A DNA stretch of 64,000 bases. Source: Siphonodentalium dalli. Taxonomy: Eukaryota > Mollusca > Scaphopoda > Gadilida > Siphonodentaliidae. The translations under genes and the position numbers were made by a program. Location: the NCBI GenBank assembly GCA_032622095.1, contig CP136066.1, positions 93,951,319-94,015,318 of the forward strand. Reading direction: 5' to 3'. Shown piece by piece: positions 7,145-53,690 of the stretch (the first letter of the stretch is position 1; each line of letters starts with the position of its first letter). The notes under the pieces were generated by a model. That model was given only the letters and a program-made list of their open reading frames with translations. It did not search any database and was not told the origin of the DNA.

Positions 7145-8095
7145 GGCGTGCCAAAAAGTTAAATCCAAGATGGCTGCCAGTGGCCATGTTTTATGGCTGA
7201 ATTACCCCAAAATGACTCGTTCCCATCTACATACCAATGTTAACACCCATGACAAATTTCATGATCCGACCAAAGGTACGACCTGTAGCCCATGCCAAAG
7301 GATTTAGTCATGCAAAGATTAAGATCCAAGATGGCTGCCGCTGAACATGTTTTATGGCCGAATGACCCCAAAATGACTCGTTCCCATCTACATGTCAATA
7401 TTAACGTCCATGACAAATTTCATGATCCGACCAAAGGTACGACATGTAGCCGTTGCTCATGTATAGAGTAAAATCCAAGATGGCTGCTGGCGGCCATGTT
7501 TTTTGGCCGAATGACCCCAGAATGACTCTTTCCCATCTACATGTCAATATTAACATAATCTACAAATTTCATGATGATCAGACAAACAGTACGGCTTGTA
7601 GCCTGTGCTGATGGATTGAATTTTGAAATCCAAGATGGCCACTGACAGCCATGTTTTATTGCCGGATGACCTCAAAATGACTCGTTCCCATTTACATGTC
7701 AATGTTGACAACCATGACAAATTTCATAATGATCCGACCAAATGTACGACCTGTAGCCCATGCCACAGGATTTAGTCATGCAAAGAGTAAAATCCAAGAT
7801 GGCTGCTGGTGGCCATGTTTGTTTGACGAATGACCCCAAAATGACTCGTTTCCCATCTACATGTCATTGTTAACAACCATGACAAATTTCATAATGATGA
7901 GACATACAATACCACCTGTAGCATGTGCTAATCTATTGAATTTTGAAATCCAAGATGGCCACTGTCAGCCATGTTTTTTTGCCGAATGACCCCCAAAATG
8001 ACTAGTTCCCATCTACATGTCAATGTCAACAGCTATGACAAATTTCATAATGATCTGACCAAAGGTACGACCTGTAGCCCGTGCTAAAGAAAATT
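7145..8095 (+). repeat. G tandem array, about six units
   Basis: Units of roughly 155-160 bp, each with ATCCAAGATGGC, GGCCATGTTTTATGGCCGAA, ATGACCCCAAAATGACTCG and GTACGACCTGTAGCCC-like blocks. Units alternate between a TGGCTGCTGG form and a TTGAATTTTGAAATCC...TGGCCACTG form. Confidence 0.9.
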
Positions 8096-14959: not shown

Positions 14960-15181
14960 ATTCCTCATGGATGTAGGCCGAAGCAGAATGAGGTTCCCAG
15001 AGGTTGAATTTGGTGACGGTAATCCGCCGTGCGGGATACCATCACTAAATTCACCCTTTGGGGACTTCATTCTGCAAATTTCAGACAGAATATTTCCAGG
15101 CATGGACTCACTTCTTTGTTAGAACCAATGATCATGTCCTAACCAACAGCATGCTCCTGATGCTCTGCTCAGAAACACATA
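14960..15181 (-). mobile_element. Partial hAT-F plus link segment (composite copy 1)
   Basis: Starts abruptly inside a hAT-F foldback (GGCCGAAGCAGAATGAGG), runs to its end (AGAATATTTCCAGGCATG), then a 75-bp link (TTGTTAGAACCAATGATCA to CTCTGCTCAGAAACACAT) that meets a TA-A MITE at 15182. The same order is found at 18.17-19.08 kb and, inverted, at 42.44-43.32 kb. Confidence 0.8.
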
Positions 15182-15390
15182 CAGTAATGCCCTAAATAAT
15201 CGACTCCTTAACCACATCAGAATTATTGGTAAGTTTTCAGGATTTAGTCGAAAATATGGCTTTTGCCATTCATCGGAAAGCTCTCGGGGAGAGCTTTCCG
15301 ATGAACAACAAGCCATATTTTCGACTAAATCCTGAAAAGTTACCCATAACTCTGCTGTGGTTATGGAGTCGATTAATTAGGGCATTACTG
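15182..15390. mobile_element. TA-A MITE (composite copy 1)
   Basis: Carries the variant AACCACATCAG in its left arm where most copies have AACCACAGCAG. That variant is shared only with the MITEs at 18872 and, as the complement, the right arm at 42440-42612. Confidence 0.92.
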
Positions 15391-16210
15391 TACATTTCTA
15401 GATATGTCCATTATATTTCATTTCTACAATAATGCGGCATTCCCAACATGATGTAATAAACCATTTCCAAATATGGAGTGCATTCCTGGCATAGTAAATG
15501 TTTGTGAGAATCGTAGTATTTAAAAATAGCAATATATACAACAAGATGCGAAAGAATAATCAGTCACGAATATTGTTGACTGATAAAAACTTAAGATGAT
15601 GTCTCCTATATTGCGATGAGTAAAATGAATTATGGATATATCACCTGTATTCAGTTTCCAACAATAGTTGAGTTTGACATTGCATGAGAAACTTTACAAG
15701 ACGTCATTGTCCTCTGATCTGTGAAGTGATATGTTATGCCATAAACCAATGAAATCACGCGCGTGGTTCACCACTCTCCAATGAAATGAAGGGAATACCA
15801 TCAATGCAGTAACTGATTATGAATGAGATATCCAGAGATGTAAATATTGTCAAATTTTCATCGGCTTTTTAAAGAAACTGAGCACCACCAAGGTAAAAGC
15901 AGAGAGAAAATTTTTTAAGCAATAATATTGTGATATTAATGTACCGGTAACCACTCACCCGGAGTATAGCCTCATGACATAATACCAAAGTGTAACCACC
16001 CATAATATCAAAATGAAACCACACACAATCACAGGCATATGTGGAACAATTAGCTTGGCATTTTTTACACCACTAATGGTGCTGGTAATGCGTGAATTGC
16101 GACATTGTCTGTAGCAAATTTAACAGAATAAATTGTAAGATGAGAAGAAGAACATATAAAAAAAACAAGAAAATATTATGCTTTCATGTATATTCTTAAT
16201 TTTTTAGATA
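15391..16210. other. Unassigned spacer
   Basis: No recognised repeat or exon. Confidence 0.4.
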
Positions 16211-18169: not shown

Positions 18170-18871
18170 TATATAACTTTTGATCTGCATGCAATTCCCT
18201 ATCTATAATTGGTCACTTTATAACCTCCCTCTTATAGGCTGAATAAGTTGACTGCTCAAATCAAGATAAGTAAATTATCAGTCTCTCAACTTTGAACAAA
18301 AATTTAAATAATATTGATGATGTATGAAATTGATATGTATGCAATGAATACGAATGACTCACTCAAACCTGGATATAGTATGTCTGACATTTGCAGAATG
18401 AGGTCCCCAGAGGGTGAATTTAGTGACACTATCCCACACAGCAGGCTAGCATCACCAACCAAACTCACCCTATGGGGACTTCATTCTGTTTAGGCCTAAT
18501 CTTCTGGGAAGTAATATCGTTTTTAGTTATTTTTTCCCTTCTGCTCAGTTTCTATGTCCCCTAATTTGCAGAAGATAAATTTGCATAATCCCAATGCCCA
18601 ATGGGTGCACATCACCAACTTGAACTGCGGAATTTCAATCTGATCCCGGGTCTCTCATAGCAGTTGAGGCCGAAGCAGAATGAGGTTCCCAGAGGGTGAA
18701 TTTGGTGACGGTAACCAGCAGTGGGATACAATCACTAAATTCACCCTTTGGGGACCTCATTCTACAAATGTCAGACAGAATATTTCCAGGCATGGACTCA
18801 CTTCTTTGTTAGAACCAATGATCAAGCCCATACCAACAGCATGCTCCTGATGCTCTGCTCAGAAACACATT
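18170..18871 (-). repeat. Composite repeat copy 2 in the 3' flank of the host gene
   Basis: Inverted copy of 42613-43320. In plus-strand order: a flank segment (ACTTTTGATCTGCATGC to CGAATGACTCACT), a hAT-F element, then the 75-bp link ending CAGAAACACAT. Together with the following TA-A MITE it lies directly downstream of the host gene stop codon, so it may be transcribed as 3' UTR. Confidence 0.85.
18364..18794. mobile_element. hAT-F foldback element, complete
   Basis: Perfect 8-bp target duplication GACTCACT at 18356-18363 and 18795-18802. Ends CAAACCTGGATATAG and TATTTCCAGGCATG, each followed by an internal foldback (GCAGAATGAGG...CCTCATTCTGC). 431 bp. Confidence 0.9.
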
Positions 18872-19084
18872 CAGTAATGCCCTAAATAATCGACTCCTTA
18901 ACCACATCAGAATTATGGGTAACTTTTCAGGATTTAGTCGGAAATATGGCTTGTTGCCATTCATCGGAAAGCTCTCACTGAGAGCTTTCCGATGAATGGC
19001 AACAAGTCATATTTCCGACTAAATCCTGAAAAGTTACCCATAATTATGCTGTGGTTAAGGAGTCGATTATTTAGGGCATTACTG
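18872..19084. mobile_element. TA-A MITE abutting the host gene stop codon
   Basis: Nearly perfect palindrome, GGGCATTACTG at its right end followed by TA. Its edge is 7 bp from the stop codon complement at 19092-19094. Carries the AACCACATCAG variant. Confidence 0.92.
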
Positions 19085-19091
19085 TAAGAAC

Positions 19092-19611
19092 CTAGTTGTC
19101 GGAGGATCTCTCGTTCCCATCTGAGCTCTCTTGTTTAGCACTATCTATGACATCCTCAGTATATGCCACATTGGAATATCCCACCATGTCACCACTCTCC
19201 ACTCCAATAATGTTATGTTTTAGTATTACTGGCAGATTTCTCATCCTTACTGGAGGCAATGGCTCTGGTGTAAGTTTGGACGAACTGATGTCGCCAATTT
19301 TGTTTTTGAAAGGACTGCCCCTTGATGACTGGTCAAGGTCATTCTGTTTGACTCTCTCCACTGGAATGTTTTTCGGTTTATAGTCCTTTGATTCGTCCAG
19401 TCCATCGATATTTTTGCTATCAACATAGCTGGATTTGTCCGCTAAAGTTGTGATAGCTGAACTGTTCCGATTTGATCCAATGAGATGCTTTCCTGATGAT
19501 GTGCTGTGACTTGGAGATTTTCCTTTGTCTCCTTCCCACTTCTCTTTTTTCTCCGCCTTTGAATGTAAATAGTTGTATGATTGATAGAGGGAAATGTCTA
19601 AAGGTGGCTTC
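19092..19611 (-). CDS. Terminal coding exon: cytoplasmic tail of a putative single-pass membrane protein
   Basis: Minus-strand exon starting after the acceptor CTTATAATTCCAG (AG at 19613-19612) and ending at TAG (19094-19092). It encodes about 172 residues after a split Arg codon, starting KPPLDISLYQSYNYL. The upstream part of the same open frame (above 19612) is intron read-through and TTAA-KL repeat. The tail is Ser/Lys/Asp-rich, has a basic block EKKEKWEGDKGK, a PLPPVR motif fitting the class II SH3 ligand PxxPx(R/K), and YSNV fitting the GRB2-type SH2 ligand YxNx 28 residues from the C-terminus. These are motif matches only. It begins in phase 2, exactly as needed after the membrane exon at 33819-33714. 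No family recognised. Confidence 0.72.
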
Positions 19612-33713: not shown

Positions 33714-33819
33714 CTTTTGTGTTTGATGTAGTAATAAATAGCAATTCCAACTGCTACACAGACGGCTACTATACCAAAAGCCACACCTATCAGCCAAAGG
33801 TTATCACCACCGGCATTCG
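33714..33819 (-). CDS. Transmembrane exon of the putative membrane protein
   Basis: 106-bp minus-strand exon between acceptor TTACGATTCACAG (AG at 33821-33820) and donor AAAAG|GTGGGT (GT at 33713-33712... read on the complement). Frame: two bases complete the previous codon (Ala with the upstream exon), then NAGGDNLWLIGVAFG, a hydrophobic run IVAVCVAVGIAIYYY of a single-pass helix, and the stop-transfer KHKR. It ends with two bases of an Arg/Ser codon, which the terminal exon (first base G) completes as AGG. The translation of the neighbouring TA-A MITE continues the same open frame but lies beyond the donor. Orientation (stalk outside, tail inside) follows from the basic residues after the helix. 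Confidence 0.72.
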
Positions 33820-36665: not shown

Positions 36666-36910
36666 CAGTAATTCTCTAAATTATCAACTCCTTAACCACA
36701 GCAGAATTATGGGTAACTTTTCAGGATTTAGTCGGAAATATGGCTTGTTGCCATTCATCGGAAAGCTCTCTGTGGCTTGTTGTCATTTATCGGAAAGCTC
36801 TCAGTGACAGCTTTCCGATGAATGGCAACAAGTCATATTTCCGACTAAATCCTGAAAAATTACCCATAATTCTGCTTTGGTTAAGGAGTCGATTATTTAG
36901 GGCATTACTG
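36666..36910. mobile_element. TA-A MITE with a duplicated centre
   Basis: The segment GGCTTGTTGCCATTCATCGG is followed by a second copy GGCTTGTTGTCATTTATCGG, making this copy about 245 bp. Confidence 0.9.
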
Positions 36911-38021: not shown

Positions 38022-39371
38022 AGATATATCCTCAAGTTAGTAACAAACTCATAAGTTAATTTTCAACTGAAAAGACACCTGAATTTTTTTTAATTATTTC
38101 CAAGATTATCAATATACAGACATTGAAAATTCAAAGAAGCATATAAAATTAATACACTAAAAAAAAATATATAATAAAATGAATAAATGAAGCAAACTAA
38201 ATACATTAGTATCTGACATTAACAAATGGTTTTGTAGTTTAACCATAGAATAAGATATAGATAAAATAGAAAGAATAATCATATCAAATCAAAGATAGTC
38301 ACATCAGTCTATAGATATTTTTATGGATTCAGAAATGAGATTTGTTTCACGGGGATTCATAACTTCCCTGTTAGAACAAGAAAGTTTTTAATGGAGAATG
38401 GAACCTGACATGCTGTTTAGTTAGTGTTTGGTTAGACATGCCAAAGAGAAAACAGGTGAACAATGGGTTTACTATTTTTCACAAGTCACAAGCAGAAGGC
38501 TTTTTGTAGATAAAATGTTTGATAATACGAAAAAAGAAATAGTGTACCACTTCAGCACGTGATGCTAAGGACATATTGCAGCACTTCAACACTCAATGCA
38601 AAAGAGATCATAATATATACAATCGAATTTACAGTACGCAGTCAACATAGTTTCTGATGAATATCTAGGCATATAGAGTGTCAGATTTCAAACAACGTCA
38701 TGTTACCTGTATAATTTTGGTAAGCGAAATTATACCAAGTTTTTTTGTTCAGCATCTGACATTTCTATACCCCAGAGATTTATCGAAAACAATGTTGATT
38801 AGTTAAAATATGCCAACAAAACATTATTTTCGGCTATCTAGTTTGAATCCTGCTAAAAAAAATAATTGAAAGGCGTTCTTTTCCATTGGGACATACTAGT
38901 AGCTGAATTCGAATGACAGGCCAAAACTATATTGGTCAAATTTGACAATGATGAAGAAGTTCATAAAATAAACACACTTTGATTATCTTTTTTCGATAAT
39001 AAATTACACAAAAGTAAGAAACGACACCTGTATTAAAACTATAAATATATTCTTTATGGTGATAAAACTCAAACATTTAAAAATATGATACTAGAAGATC
39101 TATTGTAATAAAAACCCTCAGAGTTAGAATTCAGAAGCAGGGTTCGCACTGAATTTGCAGTCTCGGATGACTGACACTAAATGGAAATAGTAAAACATTC
39201 CTTTATCCCCATCAAAATTATGGCATTTCACCATTCAGTCTTATTCATTAATTTTGTTTTCACACTGTATGGTAACTATGGACGTTGCTTACAAAATGAC
39301 ATCATGATGTGGGGTGCTGATTAGAGTCGCCAAATTTCTTGAAGTATCACTGCGCGTTATAATCAAGTAAT
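38022..39371. other. Unassigned intronic sequence
   Basis: About 1.35 kb without a recognised repeat or exon. The last 8 bp are the target duplication of the following hAT-F element. Confidence 0.4.
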
Positions 39372-40160
39372 CAAGCCTTGAAATAGGGTGTCTGTCATTT
39401 GCAGAATGAGGTCCCCAGAGGGTGAATTTAGTGATGGTATCCCGCACGGCGGGTTACCGTCACCAAATTCACCCTCTGGGAACCTCATTCTGCTTCGGCC
39501 TCGACTGCTATGAGACCCGGGATCAGATTGAAATTCCGCACTTCAAGTTGGTGATGTGCACCCATTGAGCATTGGGATTATGCAAATTTATCTTCTGCAA
39601 ATTAGGGGACATAGAAACTGAGCAGAAGGGAAAAAATAACTAAAAACAATATTACTTCCCAGAAGATTATGCCTAAATAGAATGAAGTCCCCATAGGGTG
39701 AGTTTGGTTGGTGATGCTAGCCTGCTGTGTGGGATAGTGTCACTAAATTCACCCTCTGGGGACCTCATTCTGCAAATGTCAGACATACTATATCCAGGTT
39801 TGAGTGAGTCATTCGTATTCATTGCATACATATCAATTTCATACATCATCAATTATTATTTAAATTTTCTGTTCAAAGTTAAGAGACTGATAATTTACTT
39901 ATCTTGATTTGAGCAGTCAACTTATTCAGCCTATAAGAGGGAGGTTATAAAGTGACCAATTATAGATAGGGATTTGCATGCAGATCAAAAGTTATCACCA
40001 AATTCACCCTCTGGGGACCTCATTCTGCTTACACCTCAGCAGAATGAGGTTCCCAGAGGGTGAATTTGGTGATGCTAGCCCGCTATGCAGGGTAGCATCA
40101 CTAAATTCACCCTCTGGGGACCTCATTCTGCAAATGACAGACACCCTATTTCAAGGCTTG
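39372..40160. mobile_element. Chimeric hAT-F element at the start of the tandem duplication
   Basis: Outer ends CAAGCCTTGAAATAGGGTG and its complement, flanked by a perfect 8-bp duplication CAAGTAAT (39364-39371 and 40161-40168). From about 39.40 kb the interior switches to a second hAT-F element (its right end at 39802 followed by AGTGAGTC) and its flank, then returns to the first element at about 39.99 kb. Confidence 0.82.
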
Positions 40161-40710
40161 CAAGTAATAGAGATTGTTGCTGCCAAGCATATCCAAGTGC
40201 CTTGACCAATCAGATGCACGCGTTTAAGCGAAATCAAAAGTAGGTGTAATTATGATAATGTAATGTCCTCATTTCATTCACACCTTGCCCGATATTCCGA
40301 AAATAAAAACATTGGTCAATAAGAAATTTAATTGAAAATTACGCCACACCATTCTTATGTATGTTAAAAACAAAATGAAAGATGTGGCACAGTGACAGTT
40401 AAGCCCGTCTGTCAACGGTGAATATATTTTAATATTTATCACCAAAGAAAGTTAACTGTCAGATGCAGGCAAAATGTTCAAATCCGCATAAAGGTCAAAT
40501 GAATTATGTAGAAAACATAAAAATGGAAATGTGGTAAATCGCAGTTTTGAAAAGATTCTGCAATCTTACTTAAAATAATGGAGAATTTATCTTTGAAGGC
40601 AGTTTGTGAGGTAACAGTAAGTTAGTAAATAAAATATGCATGGTAATTCAGGTAAAGGTCATCTACTGAGCTAACATTACTAAGAAAGATTATAACTACT
40701 GCAAGACATA

Positions 40711-40899
40711 CAGTAACGCTCTAAATAATCGACTCCTTAACCAAAGCAGAATTATGGGTAATTTTTCAGGATTTAGTCGGAAATATGACTTGTTGCCATT
40801 CATCGGAAAGCTCTCAACAAGCCATATTTCCGACTAAATCCTGAAAAATTACCCATAATTCTGCTGTGGTTAAGAAGTCGATTATTTAGAGCATTACTG
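40711..40899. mobile_element. TA-A MITE in duplication copy 1
   Basis: CAGTAACGCTCT...AGAGCATTACTG, right arm short at the centre; 58 bp from the stalk exon. Absent from the older exon relative at 46.1 kb. Confidence 0.93.
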
Positions 40900-40956
40900 T
40901 AGGATGATACATGGTTCAGCAGGACGAACATTGGTAATTTTATTAAATCAACTCAC

Positions 40957-40992
40957 TAGTGCCGATCGTTGTACTGATTGTTTCCACATATT
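40957..40992 (-). CDS. 36-bp stalk exon, duplication copy 1
   Basis: Minus strand: acceptor TTTTAGCTCCAG (AG at 40994-40993), exon of 36 bp, donor GTGAGT (GT at 40956-40955). Phase 1 at both ends, so inclusion or skipping keeps frame. Encodes YVETISTTIGT between split codons (Lys before when joined to a sibling exon, Asn after when joined to the 34.8 kb micro-exon). Thr/Ser-rich, consistent with an O-glycosylated stalk (inference). Identical to the copy at 44284-44319. Confidence 0.68.
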
Positions 40993-40999
40993 CTGGAGC

Positions 41000-42439
41000 T
41001 AAAAGAAATCATACACAGTTGTTTTGCAAATTTTTTTACATTTAGGGTGGATACACACATGCATGAAATCTCTGTAATTATCGTGTATTTGGCGTTTTAC
41101 ATGGATCATACAGACAATGTAATATGTGTCCACTGACAACCCAATCATTGTCAACGTGTTGACCGCACTGATTTGTAGTTCCAATTAAGTCGGAATGTAG
41201 AAAAGCCGTTATCTTGAACCGAGTCGCCAGGCCACTTAAAATAATTGTTCGTGGGATAACCCATATGGTGGGCGTTCTATATGTAAATAATTACCAGTCC
41301 TCTTTTGATATTTATAGCAGTGGTGGATCAGGATTCCCCCGACTTGTGCCTATAATGTGATCCCCGACTTGTGGCTATATATGATCCCGAAAGCTACCAG
41401 GCGGGGTGACTAAATCTGAGCTACTTAAGTAAAACATATTATATTGTACCTTCTTGCCAAGATTATTCCGACCGATATACATGTATTCAACTAAGTCCCT
41501 TACCGATTTGAAGCTTTCGAGACCCCACGCCAAACAAGCATCATGGTCGAACATGTTCTATATGTCAGACATGTCGCATCTCGTGTTCGTGCATTAATAA
41601 AATGCCAGATATCACACAGACTTGACTAATTTCCGCAGAGAAGATATGTTTTTGACTGGCCTTAAATGTCCTGACAGCAGACAGTTTGACTTCGCTTATA
41701 ACTACTCACTTGTCTGGACTGTTAACAATGAACCGCTCGCGCGTAGGTGATTAATGTTGTCAATTATTGGCGTGGCCATGTAAAATACATGTATTTTACA
41801 TACAGAGATTACATGCATGTGTGTATCCACCCTTAGTAGATGAAAGAAGTGTTGTTGTTATAGTTTCGAAGACAAGAAAACCAGTTGATACTTCTTGAAA
41901 TTGTATTTGATTTCCAGTGGGCACATTTTCAGTGATTGAGTAACTTTCCGGTACATGTACCAGTTTATGCACATAATCAACTAGAGCGATTTGGGACTGA
42001 AATAAAACTGAGAATATACTAATTTATGTCTCCGATATAATGTACTAGTAGAACATGATATTTAATGTAATTTGATACTTCAATCATTATGTGGGTCTTA
42101 AAACCTTTCTTTGCTAAATTGATTTTCCTATCAATGTTATAAAATTATTCATTGGAAAGTTCAATTATTTATTCATCTGGTAGGATTAACTCGTTCACTG
42201 CTAAATATCCTACATACACATAATAAAATGCATATATATGTTTCAATAAACAGAAAATCATTGAATTTTATGCTCGGAGTAGGTAATTTTCACCATTTTC
42301 TCAAATTTGACCCCCAGCAACAGCTCATAACTGCAGCCTCATAATTACACCTTCAGGTTTTACACAAGTTATGACCACTTACCTCACAGTTACATCTCCA
42401 TAAAAACAGTCCACATGACAGTTAATCCTTATATATGTA
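41000..42439. other. Intron segment shared by both duplicate copies
   Basis: Mostly unassigned. Includes a partial TTAA-E left end at about 42097-42190 (CCTTTCTTTGCTAAATTG) and a palindrome ATGTAAAATACATGTATTTT near 41.78 kb. Confidence 0.5.
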
Positions 42440-42612
42440 CAGTAATGCTCTAATTAATCAACCTCTTAACCACAGCAGAATTATAGGTAACTTTTCAGGA
42501 TTTAGTCGGAAATATGGCTTGTTGCAAAAACAAGCCATATTTCCGACTAAATCCTGAAAAGTTACCCATAATTCTGATGTGGTTAAGGAGTCGATTATTT
42601 AGGGCATTACTG
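42440..42612. mobile_element. Chimeric TA-A MITE at the duplication junction
   Basis: Left arm matches the MITE at 45767 (GCTCTAATTAATCAACCTC, TTATAGGTAAC). Right arm matches the composite-type MITE at 18872 (CTGATGTGGTTAAGG, the complement of AACCACATCAG). About 40 bp around the hairpin turn is missing (GGCTTGTTGCAAAAACAAGCC). Confidence 0.9.
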
Positions 42613-43320
42613 TATGTGTTTCTGAGCAGAGCATCAGGAGCATGCTGTTGGTACGGACTTGATCATTGGTTCTAACAAAGAAGTGAGTCTATGTCTGGAA
42701 ATATTCTGTCTGAAATTTGCAGAATGAGGTCCCCAAAGGGTGAATTTAGTGATGGTATCCTGCACGGCGGGTTACCGTCACCAAATTCACCCTCTGGGAA
42801 CCTCATTCTGCTTCGGCCTCGACTGCTATGAGAGACCCGGGATCAGATTGAAATTCCGCAGTTCAAGTTGGTGATGTGCACGGTGCACCCATTGGGCATT
42901 GGGATTATGCAAATTTATCTTCTGCAAATTAGGGGACATAGAAACTGAGCAGAAGGGAAAAAATAACTAAAAACAATATTACTTCCCAGAAGATTATGCC
43001 TAAATAGAATGAAGTCCCCATAGGGTGAGTTTGGTTGGTGATGCTAGCCTGCTGTGTGGGATAGTGTCACTAAATTCACCCTCTGGGGACCTCATTCTGC
43101 AAATGTCAGACATACTATATCCAGGTTTGAGTGAGTCATTCGTATTCATTGCATACATATCAATTTCATACATCATCAATTATTATTTAAATTTTCTGTT
43201 CAAAGTTAAGAGACTGATAATTTACTTATCTTGATTTGAGCAGTCAACTTATTCAGCCTATAAGAGGGAGGTTATAAAGTGACCAATTATAGATAGGGAT
43301 TTGCATGCAGATCAAAAGTT
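42613..43320 (+). repeat. Composite repeat copy 3 at the junction
   Basis: Link of about 75 bp, intact hAT-F (42690-43129) and about 190 bp of flank. The same order, inverted, is found at 18170-18871. Confidence 0.85.
42690..43129. mobile_element. hAT-F foldback element, intact in copy 2
   Basis: AGTGAGTC at 42682-42689 and 43130-43137 is a perfect 8-bp target duplication. In copy 1 only the right part of this element survives. Confidence 0.88.
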
Positions 43321-44037
43321 ATCACCAAATTCACCCTCTGGGGACCTCATTCTGCTTGCACCTCAGCAGAATGAGGTTCCCAGAGGGTGAATTTGGTGAT
43401 GCTAGCCCGCTATGCAGGGTAGCATCACTAAATTCACCCTCTGGGGACCTCATTCTGCAAATGACAGACACCCTATTTCAAGGCTTGCAAGTAATAGAGA
43501 TTGTTGCTGCCAAGCATATCCAAGTGCCTTGACCAATCAGATGCACGCGTTTAAGCGAAATCAAAAGTAGGTGTAATTATGATAATGTAATGTCCTCATT
43601 TCATTCACACCTTGCCCGATATTCCGAAAATAAAAACATTGGTCAATAAGAAATTTAATTGAAAATTACGCCACACCATTCTTATGTATGTTAAAAACAA
43701 AATGAAAGATGTGGCACAGTGACAGTTAAGCCCGTCTGTCAACGGTGAATATATTTTAATATTTATCACCAAAGAAAGTTAACTGTCAGATGCAGGCAAA
43801 ATGTTCAAATCCGCATAAAGGTCAAATGAATTATGTAGAAAACATAAAAATGGAAATGTGGTAAATCGCAGTTTTGAAAAGATTCTGCAATCTTACTTAA
43901 AATAATGGAGAATTTATCTTTGAAGGCAGTTTGTGAGGTAACAGTAAGTTAGTAAATAAAATATGCATGGTAATTCAGGTAAAGGTCATCTACTGAGCTA
44001 ACATTACTAAGAAAGATTATAACTACTGCAAGACATA

Positions 44038-44226
44038 CAGTAACGCTCTAAATAATCGACTCCTTAACCAAAGCAGAATTATGGGTAATTTTTCAGGATT
44101 TAGTCGGAAATATGACTTGTTGCCATTCATCGGAAAGCTCTCAACAAGCCATATTTCCGACTAAATCCTGAAAAATTACCCATAATTCTGCTGTGGTTAA
44201 GAAGTCGATTATTTAGAGCATTACTG
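44038..44226. mobile_element. TA-A MITE in duplication copy 2
   Basis: Counterpart of 40711-40899. Confidence 0.93.
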
Positions 44227-44283
44227 TAGGATGATACATGGTTCAGCAGGACGAACATTGGTAATTTTATTAAATCAACTCAC

Positions 44284-44319
44284 TAGTGCCGATCGTTGTA
44301 CTGATTGTTTCCACATATT
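44284..44319 (-). CDS. 36-bp stalk exon, duplication copy 2
   Basis: Same sequence and splice sites as 40957-40992 (acceptor AG at 44321-44320, donor GT at 44283-44282). Phase 1 on both sides, so the duplicated exon can be added to the mRNA in frame and lengthen the stalk by 12 residues (KYVETISTTIGT). Confidence 0.68.
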
Positions 44320-45766
44320 CTGGAGCTAAAAGAAATCATACACAGTTGTTTTGCAAATTTTTTTACATTTAGGGTGGATACACACATGCATGAAATCTCT
44401 GTAATTATCGTGTATTTGGCGTTTTACATGGATCATACAGACAATGTAATATGTGTCCACTGACAACCCAATCATTGTCGACGTGTTGACCGCACTGATT
44501 TGTAGTTCCAATTAAGTCGGAATGTAGAAAAGCCGTTATCTTGAACCGAGTCGCCAGGCCACTTAAAATAATTGTTCGTGGGATAACCCATATGGTGGGC
44601 GTTCTATATGTAAATAATTACCAGTCCTCTTTTGATATTTATAGCAGTGGTGGATCAGGATTCCCCCGACTTGTGCCTATAATGTGATCCCCGACTTGTG
44701 GCTATATATGATCCCGAAAGCTACCAGGCGGGGTGACTAAATCTGAGCTACTTAAGTAAAACATATTATATTGTACCTTCTTGCCAAGATTATTCCGACC
44801 GATATACATGTATTCAACTAAGTCCCTTACCGATTTGAAGCTTTCGAGACCCCACGCCAAACAAGCATCATGGTCGAACATGTTCTATATGTCAGACATG
44901 TCGCATCTCGTGTTCGTGCATTAATAAAATGCCAGATATCACACAGACTTGACTAATTTCCGCAGAGAAGATATGTTTTTGACTGGCCTTAAATGTCCTG
45001 ACAGCAGACAGTTTGACTTCGCTTATAACTACTCACTTGTCTGGACTGTTAACAATGAACCGCTCGCGCGTAGGTGATTAATGTTGTCAATTATTGGCGT
45101 GGCCATGTAAAATACATGTATTTTACATACAGAGATTACATGCATGTGTGTATCCACCCTTAGTAGATGAAAGAAGTGTTGTTGTTATAGTTTCGAAGAC
45201 AAGAAAACCAGTTGATACTTCTTGAAATTGTATTTGATTTCCAGTGGGCACATTTTCAGTGATTGAGTAACTTTCCGGTACATGTACCAGTTTATGCACA
45301 TAATCAACTAGAGCGATTTGGGACTGAAATAAAACTGAGAATATACTAATTTATGTCTCCGATATAATGTACTAGTAGAACATGATATTTAATGTAATTT
45401 GATACTTCAATCATTATGTGGGTCTTAAAACCTTTCTTTGCTAAATTGATTTTCCTATCAGTGTTATAAAATTATTCATTGGAAAGTTCAATTATTTATT
45501 CATCTGGTAGGATTAACTCGTTCACTGCTAAATATCCTACATACACATAATAAAATGCATATATATATTTCAATAAACAGAAAATCATTGAATTTTATGC
45601 TCGGAGTAGGTAATTTTCACCATTTTCTCAAATTTGACCCCCAGCAACAGCTCATAACTGCAGCCTCATAATTACACCTTCAGGTTTTACACAAGTTATG
45701 ACCACTTACCTCACAGTTACATCTCCATAAAAACAGTCCACATGACAGTTAATCCTTATATATGTA

Positions 45767-45982
45767 CAGTAATGCTCTAATTAATCAACCTCTTAACCAC
45801 AGCAGAATTATAGGTAACTTTTCAGGAATTAGTCGGAAATATGGCTTGTTGCCATTCATCGTAAAGCTTTCCCCCCGAGAGCTTTCCGATGAATGGCAAC
45901 AAGCCATATTTCCGACTAAATCCTGAAAAGTTACCCATAATTCTGCTGTGGTTAAGGGAGTCGATTAATTAGAGCATTAATG
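45767..45982. mobile_element. TA-A MITE at the right edge of the duplication
   Basis: Full palindrome, right end AGAGCATTAATG-TA. Shares GCTCTAATTAATCAACCTC and TTATAGGTAAC with the left arm at 42440. Confidence 0.92.
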
Positions 45983-46099
45983 TATGGTAACTCAGGTCAA
46001 GGTCATCTCATATGATATATTAACAATAAAGATAACCCATATGAATACAGTATGTGGTTCAGCAGGATTAAGGTTAGTAATATAACCTAATCAACTTAC

Positions 46100-51961: not shown

Positions 51962-53690
51962 AAGTAAAATCCAAGATGGCTGCTGGCGACCATGTTTTCG
52001 GCCGAATGACCCCAAAATGATTGTATCCCATCTACATGTCATCGTTAACATCCATGACAAATTTTATGACGATCAGACTAAACGTACGACCTGTAGCCCA
52101 TGCTAAAGAATTTAGTCATACAAAGAGTAAAATCCAAGATGGCTGCTGGCGGCCATGTTTTTGGCCGTATGACCCCAAAATGATTGTATCCCATCTACAT
52201 GTCATCGTTAACATCCATGACAAATTTTATGACAATCAGACTAAACGTACGACCTGTAGCCCATGCTAAAGAATTTAGTCATACAAAGAGTAAATTCCAA
52301 GATGGCTGCTGGCGGCCATGTTTTCGGCCGAATGACCCCAAAATGAGTCGTTCCCATCTACATGTCATCGTTAACATCCATGACAAATTTTATGACGATC
52401 AGACTAAAGGTACGACCTGTAGCCCATGCTAAAGAATTTAGTCATACAAAGAGTAAAATCCAAGATGGCTGCTGGTGGCCATGTTTTTTGGCCAAATGAC
52501 CCCAAAATTACTAGTTCCCATGTCAATATTAACATCCATGACAAATTTTATGATGATCAGACTAAAGGCACGACATGTAGCCCGTGCTAAAGAATTTAGT
52601 CATACAAAGAGTAAAATCCAAAATGGCTGCTGGAGGCCATGTGTTTTGGCCAAATGACCCCAAAATTACTAGTTCCCATCTACATGTCAATATTAACATC
52701 CATGACAAATTTCATGATGATCAGACGAACAGTACGACCTGTGGCCCATGCTAATGGATTAAATTTTGAAATCCAAGATGGCCGCTGGTGGCCATGTTTT
52801 TGTCCGAATGACCCCAAAATGAGTCGTTTCCCATCTACATGTCATCGTTAACATCCATGACAAATTTTATGACGATCAGACTAAAGGTACGACCTGTAGC
52901 CCATGCTAAAGAATTTAGTCATACAAATAGTAAAATCCAAGATGGCTGCTGGAGGCCATGTGTTTTGGCCAAATGACCCCAAAATTACTAGTTCCCATCT
53001 ACATGTGAATATTAACATCCATGACAAATTTCATGATGATCAGACGAACAGTACGACCTGTGGCCCATGCTAATGGATTAAATTTTGAAATCCAAGATGG
53101 CCGCTGGTGGCCATGTTTTTGTCCGAATGACCCCAAAATGACTCGTTCCCATTTACATGCCAATTTCAACAGCCATGACAAATTTTATGATGATCAGACT
53201 AAAGGTACGACCTGTAGCCCGTGCTAAAGGATTTAGTCATACAAAGAGTAAAATCCAAGATGGCTGCTGGCGACCATGTTTTTTGGCCGAATGACGCCAA
53301 AATTACTCGTTCCCATCTGCATGTCATTTTTAACATCCATGACAAATTTTATGATGATCAGACTAAAGGTACGACCTGTAGCCCGTGCTAAAGGATTTAG
53401 TCATACAAAGAGTAAAATCCAAGATGGCTGCTGGCGACCATGTTTTTTGGCCCAATGACCCCATAATTACTCGTTCCCATCTACATGTCAATATTAACAT
53501 CCATAACAAATTTCATGATGATCAGACAAACAGTACGGCCTGTAGCCTTGCTAATGGATTGAATTTTGAAATCCAAGATGGCCACTGGCATGAATGACCC
53601 CAAAATTAATCAATCTGGTCTAAATGTTGATGTCAACAGCTATGACAAATTTCATAATGATCCGTCCAAAGGTACGACCTGTAGCCTGCA
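51962..53690 (+). repeat. G tandem array, about eleven units
   Basis: Unit starts (AATCCAAGATGGC) at about 51968, 52132, 52295, 52459, 52615, 52770, 52935, 53088, 53252, 53416 and 53567. Within it 52613-52932 and 52933-53250 form a two-unit higher-order repeat. Ends with TGGACGACGGACGACAAAGCC and the hairpin AACTTTACAAAGTAAAGTT near 53.76 kb. Confidence 0.93.

Follow-up and report, generated by a model that had tools for sequence, protein, structure and literature searches.

A 3.3-kb segment of a predicted minus-strand gene of Siphonodentalium dalli stands in two nearly identical tandem copies, and on balance this duplication was probably produced by a two-join event acting through inverted palindromic mobile elements. 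Within the assembly this local rearrangement is well resolved; in outline it is of a known kind, and its seam is unusual. That seam runs in order from a MITE arm through a 77-bp spacer into a composite element, here called Comp', and the rearrangement as a whole displays a chimeric MITE, a foreign bridge with a retained inverted relative, an intact target duplication at copy 1, a short private tip and uneven divergence. The window analysed is a repeat-rich stretch of 64,000 nt of contig CP136066.1, to which all coordinates refer, within a genome of 2.23 Gb assembled in nine contigs.

Comparison of the window with itself aligned 39377-42616 to 42695-45986 at 97.84% identity over 3292 columns with five gap openings, so that the near-identical 3.3-kb tandem copies noticed in an earlier, sequence-only reading are indeed present in the assembly. 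Their outer flanks are single, with recurrence in the window for 0 of 302 and 0 of 294 20-mers. The self-comparison and the full list of differences place copy 1 at 39372-42528 (+), ending at the tip of the junction MITE, and the remainder of copy 2 at 43323-45982 (+), ending in a second MITE, MITE_R. The start of the unit coincides with an element terminus at 39372, and the type of element found there differs between the copies. The differences themselves are unevenly spread. The left ~190 bp of the copies hold ten substituted bases and two indels, and the body from 39569 to the junction MITE tip shows five substitutions in 2,956 columns, or 0.17% (at 40031, 41153, 42134, 42240 and 42501). 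Within 39440-39568 there are three substitutions in 129 columns together with two indels, an excess of substitutions relative to the bodies (p=0.0034, substitutions counted).

The hybrid junction MITE spans 42440-42612 (+), with the 9-bp tip TTGCAAAAA at 42522-42530, and MITE_R, the palindromic MITE that closes copy 2, spans 45767-45982 (+) around a 51-bp centre. Two left-arm variants are shared by this pair alone in a scan of the window, GCTCTAATTAATCAACCTC at 42447 and 45774 and TTATAGGTAAC at 42481 and 45808. The right-arm variant CTGATGTGG occurs in the window at 15212(-), 18902(-) and 42574(+) and nowhere else; ATTCTGCTGTGG is found at 32 sites. Among the 40 other window arms of 75 nt or more, the length to which the comparison was confined, the left junction arm lies nearest to the left arm at 45767, with one mismatch in 82 positions and a next best of four, and the right junction arm equals the left arm at 18872, with no mismatch in 82 and a next best of two, or of one with four gap columns. 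The corresponding 15-kb arm is absent among the seven nearest to the right junction arm. The comparison of arms thereby confirms the junction MITE as a chimera, its left arm from the unit's own MITE and its right arm of the 18872 type, with the private left variants and the right variant placed just as the sequence-only reading had them. That reading had further proposed an alignment of the MITEs at 18872, 42440 and 45767 to place the crossover; the informative sites confine the join to about 42484-42576, around the palindrome centre and including the 9-bp tip. An exchange inside two palindromic MITEs, also part of that proposal, is upheld by the arm assignments and fails as the sole event, since a second join is needed.

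These MITEs belong to one palindromic family, presumably mariner-like, of which several copies show TA flanks when inspected by eye. The 64 kb hold 24 two-armed members with centres of 9-81 bp. The 9-bp centre of the junction MITE is the shortest of the 24, the others measuring 18-81 bp, in a set that includes the tandem-copy pair at 40711 and 44038 and in which some arms were shortened by local alignment. Short centres are frequent in this family, with 36 bp or less in 9 of the 24. The 21-base junction tip has a single genome match at up to one mismatch, namely the junction itself, in a type of search where absence of a match does not prove rarity.

Beyond the MITE arm, the seam continues into the spacer (42613-42689, +), a copy of the sequence just past the gene's stop codon that ends in AGTGAGTC at 42682-42689, and then into Comp' (42690-43129, +), whose left terminus is of the 18.8/15.1 kb type and whose right duplication AGTGAGTC lies at 43130-43137. 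This seam block of copy 2 matches the minus strand at two other places in the window. One is block B18 (18173-19086, -), the probable donor type, comprising a MITE at 18872-19084, the spacer, Comp' at 18364-18794 and flanking sequence; the other is block B15 (14975-15395, -), where MITE, spacer and first Comp' stem-loop occur for the third time, in truncated form. In copy 2, and likewise in B18, Comp' lies between two copies of AGTGAGTC, which indicates that it inserted into what had been one continuous stretch of spacer and flank. Relative to the unit, B18 is inverted; its MITE starts seven bases past the stop codon of the predicted terminal exon, and for this reason B18 is treated as the likely original place of the block. 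The bridge, 42529-42895, corresponds to the minus strand of 18.7-19.0 kb at 347 of 358 sites, an inverted retained match of the sort expected from template switching, although B18 need not itself be the immediate donor. Seven of the 11 differences fall in the first Comp' stem-loop, and all 82 bases of the MITE arm agree; the block that follows differs from B18 at 5 of 425 sites. B15 lies 3.5 kb from the 18-kb copy in the same orientation, with different sequence outside its MITE, as if it too had been joined through its MITE.

Genome searches place this material locally. The 89-bp spacer region gave three matches from three candidates, all in the window, and the two besides the seam are inverted relative to the unit. 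A search with 42560-42960 scored 40 of 7414 candidates, so that its repeat counts are lower bounds: three of the 40 carry MITE arm, spacer and Comp' together, and the rest are the composite element of copy 1 (93%) and 36 other members of the Comp family at 82-85%. Another repeat search scored 40 of 4175 candidates, and its counts are likewise lower bounds. Among the three spacer candidates and the 40 of 7414 scored, no MITE-spacer-Comp' block in direct orientation was found in the assembly. A dispersed compound transposon is not supported as the source of the seam, the spacer being found in this window alone.

The left edge of copy 1 is of another kind. Element comparison identifies there a composite palindromic element (39372-40160, +), which we take to be hAT-like from the usual target-duplication rules, with 8-bp target duplications CAAGTAAT at 39364-39371 and 40161-40168; the copy-2 partner, by an offset of 3327, lies at 43488-43495. 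Its termini match, reading CAAGCCTTGAAATAG...CTATTTCAAGGCTTG with CAAGTAAT on either side. The outer left arm extends to ~39436, a block of the 18.2-18.8 kb type follows at ~39437-39995, and the outer right part occupies 39996-40160. The inserted block, Comp' plus ~190 bp of flank to 39995, fills the loop of an outer hairpin whose arms, ~39401-39433 and 39996-40028, differ by one mismatch. Another member of the family, at 31.2 kb, is bordered by an 8-bp duplication of its own, TTCACTCT, and 8-bp duplications thus accompany the three composite elements examined (CAAGTAAT, AGTGAGTC and TTCACTCT). Because CAAGTAAT is intact on both sides, copy 1 seems to retain its original insertion context. There is no MITE at this edge, the nearest two-armed MITE leftward being that at 36666-36910, which lacks the spacer. 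The supposition that two MITEs flank the unit is thereby contradicted in this haplotype: what stands at the left end of copy 1 is a composite element whose own duplication is intact.

Seam and bodies also diverge to different degrees. Bridge and B18 show 11 differences in 358 sites, against 5 in 2956 between the copy bodies (p=5e-8), and bridge and following block pooled, at 16 of 783, give the same contrast with the bodies (p=8e-8). A single age for seam and bodies is not supported by these tests, bearing in mind that B18 may not be the immediate donor. An age difference between the bridge and the following block (11/358 versus 5/425 from B18) was rejected as not significant (p=0.077). With body divergence far below that between bridge and B18, the seam looks older than the bodies, either because later exchange between the copies homogenised the latter or because the true donor was another block, since lost. 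Indeed, a bridge 3% distant from B18 suggests that B18 in its present form may not have been the immediate donor. Both copies carry B18-type material up to the join GTTAT/CACC (39995/43322), so this material would either have been in the unit before exchange between the bodies or have been spread by it, and more than one exchange is needed.

Two joins are required, since no MITE lies at the left edge of copy 1 and the B-type block is inverted and at least 20 kb away; a single exchange between flanking direct MITEs is insufficient for a seam that holds MITE arm, spacer and Comp'. The favoured reading is inverted-repeat template switching or breakage at a palindrome centre, followed by homogenisation. 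Repair or replication would have left the unit inside its own MITE_R, continued on the matching arm of a B18-type MITE lying inverted at least 20 kb away just past the stop codon, crossed the spacer into Comp' and re-entered the unit inside the composite element, which would yield the unit's second copy. The bodies, but not the left ends, would then have been homogenised by later exchange between the copies. The MITE join is flanked by homologous arms of 82 bp. Had Comp' been in the unit beforehand, the return join would lie at ~42896-42975 in Comp', where the copies cease to differ, with Comp homology available and away from the hairpin tip; if the return itself made GTTAT/CACC, the outer hairpin's tip would be the site, with ~2 bp (AT) in common. 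This course of events, in its sequence and direction of joins, its point of return, the involvement of B18 itself and the choice between a replicative MITE join and a centre break with end joining, is an interpretation of the features seen.

The alternatives account for some of these features and strain against others. The model of the sequence-only reading, simple NAHR between two MITEs lying immediately on either side of a single-copy unit, explains why the junction MITE is a hybrid with one arm from each parent. However, copy 1 lacks a MITE at its left edge and the element there keeps its own target duplication, the other MITE-plus-spacer blocks found (three of three spacer candidates; 40 of 7414 scored) are all inverted, and no direct-orientation repeat lies at both outer edges of the array; the model is accordingly judged improbable. 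Two successive unequal exchanges through a lost haplotype would relax the geometry. In a deletion allele, recombination in Comp would first have brought a direct MITE-spacer-Comp' block up to the unit; the MITE of this allele would then have exchanged with MITE_R to give the tandem. Ordinary NAHR would suffice for both joins, and the bridge's 3% distance from B18 would be accounted for, yet the direct-orientation block, which was not found in the assembly, must be both postulated and lost, and this route, better placed than simple NAHR, is nonetheless considered rather unlikely.

Least probable of all is an artefact of assembly, whether a false path through repeats or two haplotypes set in tandem. 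The low body divergence of 0.17% and the repeats at the seam would suit it. The outer flanks, however, are not duplicated, each copy has its own differences and the seam tip has no other match in the genome; moreover, long reads, if the assembly was built from them, would presumably span repeats this short.

The favoured two-join reading has partial precedents. Inverted repeats were found to mediate template switches through homology or homeology in the PLP1 study (PMC4352052). The DUP-TRP/INV-DUP cases of that study, from human patients, share with the present seam joins in inverted repeats and an inverted stretch that is copied, and homology or homeology is said to guide their switches (PMC4352052). 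The present rearrangement differs: a few hundred bp are inverted in it, a tandem of 3.3 kb was gained, and palindromic MITEs serve as the repeats. A second likeness is with PATRR translocations, which break at palindrome centres with small losses (PMC4940405). In both, the left half of one palindrome meets the right half of another, and bases may have been lost at the centre here as well. The present case differs in its ~215-bp MITEs, its local scale within one gene, its homologous partners and its age as an old event. End joining may have taken part; since the MITE arms are homologous, crossing over followed by loss of the tip is equally possible. A templated insertion, in which a segment copied from elsewhere lies in a rearrangement junction, resembles the bridge described here. 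Such insertions are the subject of further reports (PMC5120786, PMC7025897); the bridge is distinguished by entry via a homologous palindromic element.

The duplicated segment probably carries an exon. Splice phase predicts an exon of 166 nt, phase 0 to 1, at 41831-41996 (-), with the acceptor TTTTATTTCAG, and an identical exon in copy 2 at 45158-45323 (-); the encoded protein is found at two genome sites only, these two copies. Downstream lie a predicted transmembrane exon of 106 nt, phase 1 to 2, with donor AAG/GTGGGT (33714-33819, -), and a predicted terminal coding exon for a cytoplasmic tail with stop codon TAG (19092-19611, -). One copy of the 166-nt exon joined to these two reads openly for 263 residues to the stop, and the gene probably encodes a single-pass membrane protein. 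The exon is regarded as probable and not as proven, given that its phase would fit by chance about one time in three on our estimate, that no upstream exon was identified, so that its phase-0 start rests on prediction, and that no convincing relative was found in Pfam or PDB. The length of the open frame was rejected as coding evidence because repeats in the window hold many frames of at least 75 aa. With the three exons joined, Pfam offered a single faint match, to PsbJ (E 1.7), and PDB offered three, likewise weak, of which TMEM175 was the best (E 0.85); all of these are taken as chance. A cadherin reading of the motif SITENVPTG was rejected, with no Pfam match at E<=1 and no PDB match at E<=10; among the motif matches listed in 164 kb, none besides the exon copies looked cadherin-like by eye.

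A duplicated exon is easily misread as an extra segment of protein. The exon had been called a second in-frame copy; its length is not a multiple of three, its phases of 0 and 1 are not symmetric, and with the predicted limits the copy 2 exon spliced to the copy 1 exon gives the six residues VPNRSS and then a stop, so that joint use would break the frame. The copies could serve as alternatives, or one could be skipped; together they would not extend the protein. Adjacent related exon copies of which one is usable at a time recall duplicated mutually exclusive exons (PMC5224494), with the difference that the copies here are identical and are known from sequence alone.

The 3' edge of the predicted exon abuts a 788-bp PIF/Harbinger-like MITE (41045-41832, -) with TIR GGGTGGATAC and TSD TAA, and the second copy, at 44372-45159, occupies the corresponding position. 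The best-scoring phase-1 donor, AGG/GTGGAT, which fits the phase of the next exon, appears to come from the first bases of this MITE. The donor score of 4.5 is middling, the 90th percentile of same-strand GT sites being 4.25 and the 95th 5.77. A TWA target duplication, TAA or TTA, accompanies the two window copies (L001, L002) and five of six other loci (L003-L005, L007 and L008), L006 yielding no reading. Elsewhere, tandem arrays at 7161-8087 (~6 copies) and 51963-53554 (~10 copies) consist of related units of ~161-164 bp (AAATCCAAGATGGCTGCTGG...), and similar open frames recur at ~69.6-72.7 kb, beyond the window.

The value of the seam lies in its near base-level record of a natural tandem duplication that was entered via the tip region of a palindromic mobile element. 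It leads to the prediction that MITEs with swapped arms and short private tips should mark rearrangements genome-wide. More tentatively, palindromic MITEs might act as PATRR-like hubs, whose tips break or stall and any two copies of which can be stitched arm to arm in any orientation. Read in this manner, the seam would have been built from an inverted piece that matches the 3' region of the gene itself; the block in question occurs three times in 28 kb. If palindromic MITEs do behave as such hubs, it is MITE density, and not the layout of direct repeats, that would set the rate of exon duplication in genomes of this kind.
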